A stretch of 20,351 nucleotides of DNA from a virus: the IMG/VR virus record IMGVR_UViG_3300023284_001866, positions 1 to 20,351 of that record; one strand, given 5' to 3'. The notes below the pieces were generated by a model. The model saw only the letters and a list, made by a program, of their open reading frames with translations, did no database searches and was not told the DNA's origin. This document shows positions 4,633 through 18,322 of the stretch, piece by piece (position 1 is the first letter of the stretch; every line of letters begins with the position of its first letter). Position numbers and translations under genes: made by a program.

Positions 4633-5607
4633 TTAGTTGGTGATGCCCGAAGCGCAGGCGAGACCCAGCTCAGAGAACAAGGCGAGACCAGCGTACCACT
4701 TTACGCGCCACACACGCTCGTCCTTCTCGAAGTGAGTTCCAACATCTTCAACAACCACGCCAGCCGCATTCGCAGCGGTCAGGCCAGCGATACCATGCTG
4801 ACGGCCACCTTCGTCGAGCGTACCCGCGAAGAAAGTCGTTGCAGTGGTCGTTGAGCCCTGCGTCTGGTCAATCGGCAGGTAGTCGTTGCGGAAGATTGGC
4901 ACACCGTTATAAACGGGAACGGTCTTACCAGAAGGCAGCTCCAAAACTTCGTTGATACCCGCACCACCCAAAGCGCGAAGCAGAGCCTTGAAGGCCCGGA
5001 TCGTGCGCTTGTGCATGATGTAGTAGTCAACGTCGCCGTCCTTGTCCACAACGAGGTCAGTAACCTCGTCCATGGTCTCGAACGATAGAGCGTCGCCGTT
5101 CGCAGCCGTTGCGGCAACTGTCTGAGCAGATGCACACAGGGATACGATACCAGGGAAAGTCTCGTTCGTACCGTCGCCGTTGACGAGCATGTCCTGATAC
5201 TTACGACCGGCAGACTTCGCCTTAGACCCGATCTGGGTCGCGGTCTGGTCGTTGCCGTCGCTGGAGCGGGTTGCCTGAATCAGGCCGTTCACCTCGGCGT
5301 CACCCATGATGGTCGTCAAGGATGCGGTTACTTCGGTGAAGGTAGCTGCGTTCTTAGCAGCCTGTCGCTCAGCTAGGTTGGAGCCTCCTGAAGCGGTAGA
5401 ACCAATAACACCATCGGTGTCACCGATACCAACCGTCGCAACAGGACCCAATAGGGCCTCGCGGTTGTACTTGAGGGCGTTACCGTCAATACCGTCGAAC
5501 GGGATAACCTCGAAGAAACGGTTGACGGTGATGATGCTCTCGATCACACCGGCAACTAACTCGTTTAGGCCAAGCTTGGCGCTTTCGGCCAGGGTTACGG
5601 AAGCCAT
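4633..5607 (-). CDS. Major capsid protein (HK97-fold type)
   Basis: A 324-residue protein beginning MASVTLAESAKLGLNELVAGVIE. The segment VNRFFEVIPFDGIDGNALKY resembles the start of many capsid proteins. A GDAEVNGLIQATRSS stretch and long helix are followed by a central DYYIMHKRTIRAFKALLRALG segment and a conserved-looking VPVYNGVPIFRNDYLP strand. The C-terminal part has GLTAANAAGVVVEDVG and WRVKWYAGLALFS. Length, composition and position directly after a scaffold-like gene all fit an HK97-fold major capsid protein. It has its own promoter (5744-5772) and a GAGGAG ribosome site 9 bases before the ATG, consistent with high expression. Confidence 0.85.
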   Translation of the reverse strand: MASVTLAESAKLGLNELVAGVIESIITVNRFFEVIPFDGIDGNALKYNREALLGPVATVGIGDTDGVIGSTASGGSNLAERQAAKNAATFTEVTASLTTIMGDAEVNGLIQATRSSDGNDQTATQIGSKAKSAGRKYQDMLVNGDGTNETFPGIVSLCASAQTVAATAANGDALSFETMDEVTDLVVDKDGDVDYYIMHKRTIRAFKALLRALGGAGINEVLELPSGKTVPVYNGVPIFRNDYLPIDQTQGSTTTATTFFAGTLDEGGRQHGIAGLTAANAAGVVVEDVGTHFEKDERVWRVKWYAGLALFSELGLACASGITN

Positions 5608-12849: not shown

Positions 12850-12878
12850 TTGACTTTCCCTCGGATTGAGAGTATAAT
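12850..12878 (+). promoter_or_regulatory. Strong promoter for the tRNA/HNH island
   Basis: TTGACT (12850-12855) and a perfect TATAAT (12873-12878) are separated by 17 bases. The predicted start is only a few bases before the tRNA-Cys gene. The TATAAT is followed by ACGC, similar to the two strong minus-strand promoters of the window. Confidence 0.85.
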
Positions 12879-12893
12879 ACGCTTTGAATTCAT

Positions 12894-12967
12894 GGTGCGG
12901 TGGCAGAATGGCTATGCGCCAGGTTGCAACCCTGGTTTTAATGCTGGTTCGAATCCAGTCCGTACCT
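12894..12967 (+). tRNA. tRNA-Cys (anticodon GCA)
   Basis: A full cloverleaf is visible. The acceptor stem GGTGCGG pairs with CCGTACC (one G-T). The anticodon stem is CCAGG/CCTGG with loop TTGCAAC, giving anticodon GCA. The T arm is GCTGG, TTCGAAT, CCAGT. The discriminator base is T, but the next bases are CAT, so CCA is not encoded, unlike in the two tRNA-Gly genes downstream. An HNH cassette follows directly and its far side carries the missing TCCA. CCA would have to be added by the host enzyme. Confidence 0.93.
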
Positions 12968-12968
12968 C
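12961..12968 (+). repeat. Direct repeat CGTACCTC, copy 1 (tRNA-Cys 3' end)
   Basis: These 8 bases form the end of the tRNA-Cys acceptor strand plus the next base. An identical copy lies at 13411-13418, directly after the HNH stop codon. Confidence 0.8.
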
Positions 12969-13002
12969 ATTATCCTTGCCATATCAATTACGGAGGTAAA
13001 TG

Positions 13003-13410
13003 ATGAGCAAAGGAAATAAGAAAAAAGCCGCTGCTCTCGGAATGTCTTATGGGGCCGCAGCTAACAGACTCAGAAAGATGATTCTTTTCTCCTTGGTCTG
13101 TCGTCTGAAATTAAACGTTTGTTATCAGTGTGATAGTGAAATTCTCTCTGTGAATGATATATCCATTGAGCACAAGAATCCTTGGATTCAGGCGGATAAC
13201 CCGGTGGAGAGTTTCTTTGATCTGAACAACATAGCGTTCTCTCACTTGAGTTGTAACATAGGAGCCGCTTCTAAGCCAAATAAAAAGTATTTCACTGAAG
13301 AAGAAAAACACCGAGGTCAAATAAGAAGAAATAAAAAACGGTGGCAGTCTTTGGGGAAAGAAGAACAGCAGAAAATAAGACGAGAACAATACTTACGAAC
13401 AGGGAAATAA
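13003..13410 (+). CDS. HNH endonuclease inserted at the tRNA-Cys 3' end
   Basis: A 135-residue basic protein. The HNH core has the zinc knuckle CYQC (Cys40, Cys43), the catalytic-type IEHKN (55-59), Asn75 in FDLNNIAFS, and HLSCN (His81, Cys84). Lys/Arg-rich ends (MSKGNKKKAAA at the start, KRWQSLGKEEQQKIRREQ near the end) would bind DNA. The second ATG at 13003 is chosen because GGAGGT lies 5 bases before it, while ATG 13000 is too close. It is transcribed with the tRNAs. It is flanked by CGTACCTC repeats, so it is probably a homing-type mobile gene that targets the tRNA gene. Its AT-richer codon use differs from its neighbours. Confidence 0.88.
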   Translation: MSKGNKKKAAALGMSYGAAANRLRKMILFSLVCRLKLNVCYQCDSEILSVNDISIEHKNPWIQADNPVESFFDLNNIAFSHLSCNIGAASKPNKKYFTEEEKHRGQIRRNKKRWQSLGKEEQQKIRREQYLRTGK

Positions 13411-13418
13411 CGTACCTC
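13411..13418 (+). repeat. Direct repeat CGTACCTC, copy 2 (followed by CA, completing TCCA)
   Basis: It starts immediately after the HNH stop codon. It continues CGTACCTCCA, which is what the original tRNA-Cys 3' end with an encoded CCA would look like. Confidence 0.8.
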
Positions 13419-13466
13419 CAAGTTCCTTATCTCCTGGTTGGCCGAAAGGCTGGCTGGGAGGCCAAT

Positions 13467-13541
13467 GCGGATGTAGCTCAGTGGTAGAGCGTCTGGTTGC
13501 CAATCAGAAGGTCGAGGGTCCGAGCCCCTCTATCCGCTCCA
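13467..13541 (+). tRNA. tRNA-Gly (anticodon GCC)
   Basis: The acceptor stem GCGGATG pairs with TATCCGC. The D arm is GCTCAGTGGTAGAGC. The anticodon stem TCTGG/TCAGA encloses loop TTGCCAA, giving anticodon GCC. The T arm is GAGGG, TCCGAGC, CCCTC. Discriminator T and an encoded CCA end at 13541. Confidence 0.95.
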
Positions 13542-13607
13542 GTTTCCGGGAAGTGCATTGAGACTTATAAGACCGAAAGGGCTCTGCACTCCGTTTTCAC
13601 GATAAAT
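13542..13607 (+). other. Structured spacer between the two tRNA-Gly genes
   Basis: AGTGCA and TGCACT form a closing stem. Inside it lie GAG/CTC pairing, a CTTATAAG palindrome and a CCGAAAGG hairpin with a GNRA loop. A similar GCCGAAAGGC hairpin lies in the preceding spacer (13441-13450). It may be part of a longer structured transcript or just tRNA-processing signals. Confidence 0.45.
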
Positions 13608-13681
13608 GCGGCCTTGGCCGAGAGGTTAGGCGACAGGCTTCCACCCTGTTCACATCGGTTCGAATCCGATAGGCCGCTCCA
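13608..13681 (+). tRNA. tRNA-Gly (anticodon TCC)
   Basis: The acceptor stem GCGGCCT pairs perfectly with AGGCCGC. The anticodon stem ACAGG/CCTGT encloses loop CTTCCAC, giving anticodon TCC. The T arm is ATCGG, TTCGAAT, CCGAT. Discriminator T and an encoded CCA end at 13681. Confidence 0.95.
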
Positions 13682-13684
13682 AGT

Positions 13685-13908
13685 TTGGTCCATACCAAAG
13701 ACAGGGCTTAGTAGGGTCGCTACCAAAACTCCCTCGAAGGGATTCCTGGACCAATTCAAACTCAGTCCCGGCCCTTACGACCGGGTGGTGCCCCTTGCTA
13801 CAAGGGCAGAAGAATTGGGTGATCCTACCGAAAGGATGGGCCGCTATGCATGCGCAGGACTTACCTGCTTTGAAAAGCCCGTGAGATATGGCCACGTGGC
13901 GCCCAATT
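13685..13908 (+). ncRNA. Candidate structured non-coding RNA after the tRNA genes
   Basis: No convincing gene lies here, but stems are dense. TTGGTCCA (13685-13692) pairs with TGGACCAA (13747-13754); an alternative TTTGGT/ACCAAA hairpin (13684-13699) competes with it. Other hairpins are GTAG/CTAC, CCCGG/CCGGG (13768-13785), TGCCCCTTG/CAAGGGCA (13789-13808), ATCCT/AGGAT (13822-13837) and GCAGG/CCTGC (13854-13868). AATTGGG (13813-13819) pairs with CCCAATT (13902-13908), closing a second domain. Long structured phage RNAs near tRNAs are known (GOLLD, ROOL), but I cannot match this to either; it is much shorter. It could instead be an mRNA leader for the next gene. Confidence 0.5.
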
Positions 13909-13942
13909 TCAATTTCTTACATAAAGCTGAAAGGCGAAACCC

Positions 13943-14224
13943 TTGGATAATCTGAATATCAAGGGTATTCGTGACGACGAGCCGTTTCGCCATGGCAAGA
14001 AAAGCCGTGGCCGCAAGCAGTTCGTGCTTCAGACGCGCTGGGCTCCAGGCCCCAATTATCGAAAAGAGGCTATGGGCTGGCTATGGCGCAGTCTCAGAGA
14101 GTGGCACACTCACAGCCGCTATCATACCGAATCTGCGCGTGATCAGGCATATACCGCCCTGGTCAAAAAGGCTGAAGTCTGCCACCTGCGCGAATGGTCC
14201 TACATGGAATATAGGAAGGTGTGA
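13943..14224 (+). CDS. Hypothetical phage protein, 93 aa (TTG start)
   Basis: A 93-residue basic protein reading MDNLNIKGIRDDEPFRHG, then GRKQFVLQTRWAPGPNYRKE and AMGWLWRSLREWHTHSRYHT, ending MEYRKV. It has many Arg, Lys, Trp and Tyr and no membrane segment. The TTG at 13943 follows GAAAGG by about 8 bases. Another frame (GTG 13971) is open over the same DNA but its composition is poorer. The stop overlaps the next ATG, a good sign for coupled translation. Function is unknown. Confidence 0.6.
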   Translation: MDNLNIKGIRDDEPFRHGKKSRGRKQFVLQTRWAPGPNYRKEAMGWLWRSLREWHTHSRYHTESARDQAYTALVKKAEVCHLREWSYMEYRKV

Positions 14225-14409
14225 TGAAGATCTTCTGGGTTGAGGACTTCCTGAGCCGCGAAGTCATTGAGAACAAATACTATTCCACTCGCGAGGAAGC
14301 TGCCGCCCGCCGCAATGAGCTGGGTTACGGCCTTGTGAAGGAGTGGAAATCGCAGAAAGCCACAGGGAAGCTGGCCGAATGCCACAAGAAATGGGCCGAT
14401 CAGCCGTAA
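14224..14409 (+). CDS. Hypothetical small phage protein, 61 aa
   Basis: A 61-residue charged protein starting MKIFWVEDFLSREVIENKYY, then a helix STREEAAARRNELGYGLV, ending KKWADQP. The start TGATG overlaps the previous stop, with AGGAAGG 4 bases upstream. Its 3' end overlaps the 3' end of the minus-strand HNH gene by 10 bases (convergent). Function is unknown. Confidence 0.7.
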   Translation: MKIFWVEDFLSREVIENKYYSTREEAAARRNELGYGLVKEWKSQKATGKLAECHKKWADQP

Positions 14410-14864
14410 TATTTCAACATAGAATCCAACCAATTCCCTACCGCCAGTACTTCCTCAGCCGTGGCATCACACTTAATCATGTTAGCCCGGTTTGAAATAA
14501 TCATAACGTTTCCAGGTATATAACCCAAAGCGTTGTCGATTCGGTCTAAAGAAGGCGAGTTTCCTACGGGGAGACCTGCACAATCCCAATCTAAGACAAT
14601 ACCCAAAACAGGACATATATCTGGAAGTGGATTGATGTCATCTATCGTGATGGAGAAATCCATCTCTTTAAGCTTGGCACGCTTCTTGGCGCGATGCAGC
14701 ATCCCACGAGACTTTGCAACCCTTTGATTCTTGGCGTAACGAGTAGCCTGATCAATCTTCTTGCACGGCGTGCAATAGATGTCCAGCCGATCTCGGGTAG
14801 TGGCAGCCGGAGGAAACTGAGATGCATCCTTCACCTGCTTACAAATGTTACATCGTTTTTCCAT
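14400..14864 (-). CDS. HNH endonuclease (free-standing homing type)
   Basis: A 154-residue protein. Two CxxC pairs at the N terminus (Cys5/8 and Cys31/34) form a zinc-ribbon. A basic helical segment follows (AKSRGMLHRAKKRAK). The core has PDICPVLGI, SPSLDRIDN (catalytic-type LDRID, 106-110), and the characteristic GYIPGNVMIISNRAN (114-128) with AT-x-EE near the end. Such genes are mobile in phage genomes. The ATG at 14864 is chosen; a TTG at 14873 is also open. The ribosome site is weak. It lies at the end of the minus-strand accessory block and meets a plus-strand gene tail to tail. Confidence 0.9.
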   Translation of the reverse strand: MEKRCNICKQVKDASQFPPAATTRDRLDIYCTPCKKIDQATRYAKNQRVAKSRGMLHRAKKRAKLKEMDFSITIDDINPLPDICPVLGIVLDWDCAGLPVGNSPSLDRIDNALGYIPGNVMIISNRANMIKCDATAEEVLAVGNWLDSMLKYYG

Positions 14865-14942
14865 GCCATTCAACTATAATTCAAGTAGAAAATAGGACCG
14901 ACCCCTGCATCACACAGAAAATCGGCCCTGGAGGAGTTGACG

Positions 14943-17545: not shown

Positions 17546-17574
17546 ATTATACTCGATCATGCCGCCAAAGTCAA
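17546..17574 (-). promoter_or_regulatory. Strong promoter (TTGACT, 17 bp, TATAAT)
   Basis: On the minus strand TTGACT (17569-17574) and a perfect TATAAT (17546-17551) are separated by 17 bases. The block TTGACTTTGGCGGC at the -35 and the downstream GCGGAAATCAGCC nearly repeat those of the promoter at 19148-19176. It drives genes from 17514 leftward. Confidence 0.88.
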
Positions 17575-18095
17575 GAGAAAAGATACTTCCGCCAGGAGGT
17601 CCATTCATAGAGTTTGAAATGCCCGTAGATGTGAGCCGCTGCCACTGTCCAGAACCCCCATTCGCGCCGAGTGGCCTTACGCCAGACGAAAGTGGCCGTC
17701 CAGCCGTCAAATATCGCCTCTCGCCCCCACCAGGCTGTCGATCCGTCGTATCTCTCACACGTCGTCCAGCGATACCGAGCTGCGCCCTCCTGAATGTGGG
17801 CGTACTCGGCAGGCCGGAAATGCCAGCGAAACGCCTCCACCGCATTTCTCGCGGATCGACCCTCTCGTATGCGGTATCCATAAGGTTTCAGATCGAGCAC
17901 CCGCTCATAGTAGGTTTTTAGCGGGAAAGTCCAGAAATCGTAGGGGTGGTCGTGGAAGTCGCGGTCGTTGTCGCCCCGGTGGAAGAAGTGGAAATAGAGC
18001 TGGCCCCACCGCGTCTTTGGCGTCAATTTCACCCTGGTCAGGTAGCAGGTCGAATATTGGCCGTCCCGCCCGTATATCCGCTTGATCATGCTCAT
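17571..18095 (-). CDS. Cupin-like phage protein, 174 aa
   Basis: The protein starts MSMIKRIYGRDGQYSTCYLT. It has the phage cupin-type motif FHRGDNDRDFHDHPYDFWTF (38-57) with HxH (His48, His50), then LKTYYERVLDLKPYGYR, a RPAEYAHIQEG stretch with His100, and a C-terminal WRKATRREWGFWT. This arrangement (HDHP, then a later His) is common in small phage proteins that probably bind a metal in a double-stranded beta-helix; their substrate is not known to me. The ATG at 18095 overlaps the previous stop (ATGA). Frame upstream to 18251 overlaps the preceding gene and is not used. Confidence 0.75.
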   Translation of the reverse strand: MSMIKRIYGRDGQYSTCYLTRVKLTPKTRWGQLYFHFFHRGDNDRDFHDHPYDFWTFPLKTYYERVLDLKPYGYRIREGRSARNAVEAFRWHFRPAEYAHIQEGAARYRWTTCERYDGSTAWWGREAIFDGWTATFVWRKATRREWGFWTVAAAHIYGHFKLYEWTSWRKYLFS

Positions 18096-18322
18096 ATCTT
18101 GATCCCACTTCGACCCATACCACACCCACCACCCATGCGCTGGATGACCATTGTGCTCCCGTGCTGGTAAGCGGCCAACTCTTGGTTCGGGTACTGTACC
18201 CTCAGCGCCGCCACCGCATCCTCGAAGGAGACATTCTCTCGTCTGAAGCACACTGTGTCGTAGGGCTCCTTGATCTTTGAAACCTGGGCCAGATAGTCTG
18301 ATTGGTCACAAAAGATCTCCAT
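18092..18322 (-). CDS. Hypothetical phage protein, 76 aa
   Basis: Starting at ATG 18322: MEIFCDQSDYLAQVSKIKEP, then YDTVCFRRENVSFEDAVAAL and QELAAYQHGS. A GTG at 18334 is also open and lies just after GAGGAAA, so the true start is uncertain. The protein is soluble, and its 3' end overlaps the cupin gene by 4 bases. No family is recognised. Confidence 0.65.
   Translation of the reverse strand: MEIFCDQSDYLAQVSKIKEPYDTVCFRRENVSFEDAVAALRVQYPNQELAAYQHGSTMVIQRMGGGCGMGRSGIKI

Follow-up and report, generated by a model that had tools for sequence, protein, structure and literature searches.

Does the DNA that surrounds and follows a pair of phage tRNA-Gly genes encode a structured non-coding RNA? 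The original prediction placed a possible RNA of this sort at positions 13419–13942 of the window, by which we mean the whole analyzed stretch, a 20,351-base virus record that encodes portal, major head, and both terminase genes. Its TerL is at most ~52% identical to that of named phages, among them Bordetella phage FP1 and Pseudomonas phage PaMx11, and 60–83% identical to that of eleven uncultured contigs. Both tRNA-Gly genes were confirmed, with a tRNA-Cys gene upstream on the same strand, so the region is embedded among tRNAs as claimed; the trio lies on the + strand, oriented away from the genes for terminase. Five related contigs have this tRNA-Cys/Gly/Gly trio next to TerL, the window and four relatives (L002 and L003, which are one contig; L004; L005 and L083, also one contig; and L006). 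In the four relatives the trio sits upstream of TerL, and non-coding sequence lies 3′ of the last tRNA in each. A TerL search of GTDB genomes returned relatives at 35–56% identity, none with the trio. The features of the window discussed below are these.

12850–12878, + strand: sigma-70-like promoter, TTGACT-17-TATAAT, before tRNA-Cys; 11 of 12 consensus matches, consensus match only.
12894–12968, + strand: tRNA-Cys(GCA), called by ARAGORN and Rfam.
13430–13461, + strand: HP1, a G-U-rich 14-bp hairpin with a GAAA loop at 13444–13447, from folding, covariation, and model search.
13467–13541, + strand: tRNA-Gly(GCC), called by ARAGORN and Rfam.
13542–13607, + strand: Gly-Gly spacer, with a possible but unsupported hairpin at ~13549–13592 (z = 0.01).
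13608–13681, + strand: tRNA-Gly(TCC), called by ARAGORN and Rfam.
13685–13754, + strand: domain 1, tentative, with closing helix TTGGTCCA (13685–13692)/TGGACCAA (13747–13754); z = −0.71.
13755–13811, + strand: domain 2, tentative, two local hairpins; z = 0.04 for 13755–13820.
13812–13909, + strand: domain 3, closing helix P1 and three hairpins, from independent folds, model match, and covariation.
13812–13820 with 13901–13909, + strand: P1, closing helix of domain 3.
13824–13840, + strand: hairpin A of domain 3, CCUACC-GAAA-GGAUGGG.
13854–13868, + strand: hairpin B of domain 3.
13877–13900, + strand: hairpin C of domain 3, with a AGAUAUGGC loop.
13943–14224, + strand: 93-aa gene with a TTG start, directly 3′ of the RNA and not part of it.

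All motifs named in the original prediction were located at their positions in the window: TTGGTCCA is at 13685 and TGGACCAA at 13747, AATTGGG is at 13813 and CCCAATT at 13902, CCGAAAGG occurs at 13442, 13573, and 13828, GCCGAAAGGC at 13441, TTTGGT at 13684, and ACCAAA at 13694. The listed stems are thus present, but most are no more than expected by chance. The 261-nt tail after the tRNAs folded with z = −0.99 (28 of 200 shuffles as good) and an energy in the range seen for other 260-nt segments of the window, the 532 nt including the tRNAs folded with z = −0.11, and at least one perfect 8-bp stem occurred in 29% of dinucleotide shuffles of the tail. Because 8-bp stems are common in shuffles and the folding energy is ordinary, the number of stems alone is no proof of a structured RNA. 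Nor did one ornate RNA spanning 13419–13942 emerge, as shuffled sequence folded as well as the Gly-Gly spacer did (z = 0.01), and likewise the middle domain (z = 0.04). What stood were two separate conserved elements: a hairpin 5′ of the two Gly tRNAs, and a domain of ~100 nt at the 3′ extremity.

The first element, HP1, lies between tRNA-Cys and tRNA-Gly(GCC), and the predicted GNRA hairpin GCCGAAAGGC proved to be its tip. HP1 folded with z = −4.27 (13427–13467) and was found in the window, L003, L004, and L005; in L002 and L005, it is directly 3′ of tRNA-Cys. In an alignment of the four phages, 98.2% of cells were paired and both members of 4 pairs had changed; pairing was lost when the partners were shifted by 1–3 columns. 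A covariance model (R2) matched the four copies at E < 2e-15, with the next match at E about 1 in the 710 kb searched; as R2 was built from these same copies, its informative part is the absence of others. Searching 50,697 phage records with HP1 by blastn gave nothing beyond chance, and IMG/VR pattern scans for HP1 returned known contigs only.

The second element is domain 3. Folded alone, the window sequence formed three hairpins enclosed by P1 (z = −1.88); the corresponding segment of L002, folded independently, adopted the same layout (z = −2.51). A model made from the window domain alone matched L003 with 30 bits (E = 3.9e-5). AATTGGG/CCCAATT, one of two long-range closing stems in the original prediction, therefore closes a domain that a relative shares in layout but not in sequence. 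The other, the TTGGTCCA stem, lacks covariation support. The structural alignment of domain 3 contained 8 doubly changed pairs, 7 of the 9 in P1 and one in hairpin C, with all counted cells paired, but this alignment was fitted to the structure and is hence biased towards it. For this reason, P1 was also tested without an alignment, by shuffling the flanks of the shared core: an equally strong helix arose in 1.1% of shuffles for the window and in 0 of 5000 for L002. Within a 21-nt block, CCUACCGNAAGGAUGGGCCGC, the sole difference between the window and L002 is the N of the GNRA loop in hairpin A. Taken together, these findings on domain 3 are the main evidence that the tail is an RNA under selection. 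Covarying helices in homologs were found for HP1 in four phages and for domain 3 in two, too few for R-scape-grade statistics.

Domain 3 is firm only in the window and L002/L003. Model and motif searches found no domain 3 in L004 or L005, though their trios are intact. IMG/VR pattern scans for the core returned known contigs only, a relaxed hairpin A pattern gave no copy adjoining a tRNA among the matches listed, and blastn of the tail against the 50,697 phage records gave nothing beyond chance, with matches to the tRNAs only. Relatives sought via the downstream 93-aa and 61-aa proteins comprised L002 only; the 93-aa gene product has a 42% identical protein there and no PHROG match.

L006 holds a suggestive candidate for a weaker copy. 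Within the 138 nt that follow its tRNA-Cys, CUAC-GCAA-GUAG and then GGGCUGC are enclosed by GGUAGGGUG/CACCCAACC. Of shuffled sequences, 0.07% contained the hairpin plus motif, and 0 of 3000 had a P1 of this kind as well, the motif having been loosened after the L006 sequence was seen; by the models, this copy scored only 9.5–10.4 bits (E 0.55–0.6). It lies between the last tRNA and a 15-bp stem with a T run, which is likely a terminator whose 11-nt loop falls beyond the range of the terminator scanner. As a separate observation, the Gly-Gly spacer of L006 (L006:7193-7304) is very stable (z = −6.58) and contains a 12-bp and a 9-bp hairpin.

In the remainder of the window region, domain 1, domain 2, and the Gly-Gly spacer folded no better than shuffles, and domains 1 and 2 had no comparative support. 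The TTGGTCCA stem begins 3 nt after the tRNA, where a helix that strong has p = 0.01. A strong helix within a few bases of the tRNA end was also seen in L006 (p = 0.013) and marginally in L005 (p = 0.06); in L002 and L004, the helix near the tRNA end was not stronger than expected. The TTTGGT/ACCAAA switch suggested earlier was drawn from one sequence and gained no comparative support. In L004, long non-coding spacers separate all three tRNAs (L004:372-604 and L004:720-944), and the one between its Gly tRNAs exceeds shuffled sequence in stability (z = −2.69), with no similarity to domain 3 found. Between the two Gly tRNAs of L002, at ~5190–5324, there is a possible 44-codon ORF (MTEVEKTVNALLAKAVKAV...) with a GGAGG site.

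The earlier judgments that the region is non-coding and is neither GOLLD nor ROOL both held. There is no convincing ORF. Minus-strand coding was considered and rejected: the two frames on that strand are similar over just 16 residues, where they overlie the conserved RNA block, and no protein is conserved across the stretch. With cmscan and all of Rfam 15, only tRNA reached the gathering score in the window. ROOL and GOLLD gave no match for 13400–13960 at E up to 10, Intron_gpI gave none either, with limits of E = 10 for the window stretch and E = 5 for L002, L004, L005, and L086, and permissive Rfam searches of the window and relatives gave chance-level matches only. These results exclude any recognizable group I intron, GOLLD, or ROOL. 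The idea that domain 1 is a degenerate tRNA was likewise rejected, with no RF00005 match at E up to 10 and no tRNA-like match in the tail. As shape is kept while sequence changes and no known RNA family matches, HP1 and domain 3 are very probably real non-coding RNA elements of some kind.

How might these elements be expressed? The promoter match before tRNA-Cys in the window has a counterpart at the same place in L002 (12 of 12 consensus matches), and L004 and L006 have 10 of 12 matches before the first tRNA; consensus matching found no promoter on the tRNA strand of L005. After the tail, the + strand of the window has no terminator-like site. A single transcript through the tail is plausible. 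We propose that the region is one stable-RNA transcription unit, in which a strong host-type promoter would drive tRNA-Cys, HP1, tRNA-Gly(GCC), tRNA-Gly(TCC), and a ~230-nt non-coding tail ending in the conserved, independently folding domain at 13812–13909. Host tRNA-processing nucleases would release the tRNAs, and HP1 would act in cis in precursor maturation, as a spacer or as a nuclease- or protein-binding hairpin. The tail would persist as a structured phage RNA in its own right, with domain 3 as its cap; the invariant parts of that domain, GNRA hairpin A and the GAUAUGGC loop, look like possible binding surfaces for a protein or RNA partner. We consider this model, an operon for stable RNAs that includes a hairpin for maturation and a structured tail at the 3′ end, possibly a free RNA, somewhat better than an even bet.

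Several other explanations bear on the same observations. HP1 and domain 3 could be nothing but cis-acting signals for tRNA maturation, providing spacing, nuclease sites, or 3′-end protection, with a cut-off tail that has no function. HP1 does lie between tRNA genes in all four phages that have it, the last tRNA is followed within a few bases by a helix in the window, in L006, and marginally in L005, and domain 3 is absent from L004 and L005 despite the intact trio; domain 3, however, is 130 nt beyond the last tRNA and has invariant loops that a processing signal would hardly need, and we regard this explanation as unlikely. Slightly less probable is that domain 3 serves as a cis-acting leader of the 93-aa gene, riboswitch-like or a translational operator, rather than as a free RNA. 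The gene begins 33 nt after P1, and its homolog is downstream of the matching domain in L002, but there an HNH-like ORF (L002:5643-6008) separates domain 3 from the gene, and the terminator-like stem of L006 comes right after its possible copy of the core; both arrangements weaken the leader explanation.

That the stretch is neutral spacer with chance stems would fit its ordinary folding energy and the shuffle-like behavior of domains 1 and 2 and the Gly-Gly spacer. The P1 and HP1 stems, however, have been rewritten yet remain complementary, and the models match; because of these compensated changes, chance is already improbable for HP1 and domain 3, and we think it very unlikely overall. Least probable of all is a decayed self-splicing intron or other ribozyme imported with neighboring homing endonucleases. 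HNH genes do occur in or adjoining the operon in the window and L002, and a GAUAU motif, reminiscent of the J8/7 region of group I introns, is a mere lead in its favor; against it, no Rfam intron or ribozyme matched at permissive E-values, all three tRNAs are uninterrupted, and the P1 closing helix does not correspond to the P3/P7 pseudoknot of such introns.

Our best reading is a structured RNA tail peculiar to this lineage and a processing hairpin, both in a tRNA operon with a strong promoter: a new RNA of a known general kind and distinct from GOLLD and ROOL. The T4 tRNA cluster encodes stable non-tRNA RNAs of 100–150 nt (species 1 and 2, or RNA C and D) that are transcribed with the phage tRNAs, as proposed here, and whose function is unknown. 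Phages and prophages also encode the structured non-coding RNAs ROOL and GOLLD, which frequently lie close to tRNA islands and whose function is unknown; ROOL env-120 is 659 nt, many GOLLD RNAs exceed 800 nt, and these RNAs form nanocages (PMC12286853). The RNA described here is comparable in position, directly after the Cys-Gly-Gly trio in the window and likewise in relatives, but not in family: ROOL and GOLLD are large, over 600 nt with many pseudoknots, whereas here 261 nt separate the last tRNA from the next gene and the tail is ~230 nt. The phiKZ ncRNA candidates, ~100–180 nt, are also phage-encoded, and the first of them is assumed to arise by processing of a longer transcript, but they originate in a 3′ UTR and a 5′ UTR of mRNAs rather than in a tRNA operon (PMC8545117).

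A bolder version, to which we give a low probability, is that the tail belongs to a new class of trans-acting phage RNA. Its ~100-nt core (P1, GNRA hairpin A, GGGCYGC, and the GAUAUGGC loop) would bind a host or phage partner, and its periphery would change rapidly from phage to phage, as might be expected of an arms race against nucleases or defenses of the host. The role of phage RNAs encoded beside tRNA genes, GOLLD and ROOL included, is an open question, and the modest size of a conserved ~100-nt core makes it amenable to probing, purification with partners, and structure determination. Turnover of sequence while structure stays suggests that such RNAs have perhaps been overlooked.

The tRNA loci themselves differ among these phages. 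The 93-kb relative, L006, has a main array (L118, G004:C1:42600-48000) of ~29 called tRNAs, none Cys or Gly, and the trio beside TerL thus completes the set; the trio (L006:6978-7379) is 30 kb from that array. The phage of the window may likewise carry a second tRNA array outside the present fragment. The HNH gene of the window lies between tRNA-Cys and HP1 (region 13000–13410), a different position from that of the HNH-like ORF in L002, as if insertions favored the tRNA operon. Further mobile endonucleases in this 20-kb fragment are a GIY-YIG-like ORF within the head gene region (1636–2196, − strand, identified by eye) and an endonuclease VII/HNH-like gene (14400–14873, − strand). Elsewhere in the window, the protein encoded at 17571–18251 (− strand) has a match (E = 3.7e-21) to a PHROG family that bears the name cysteine dioxygenase.
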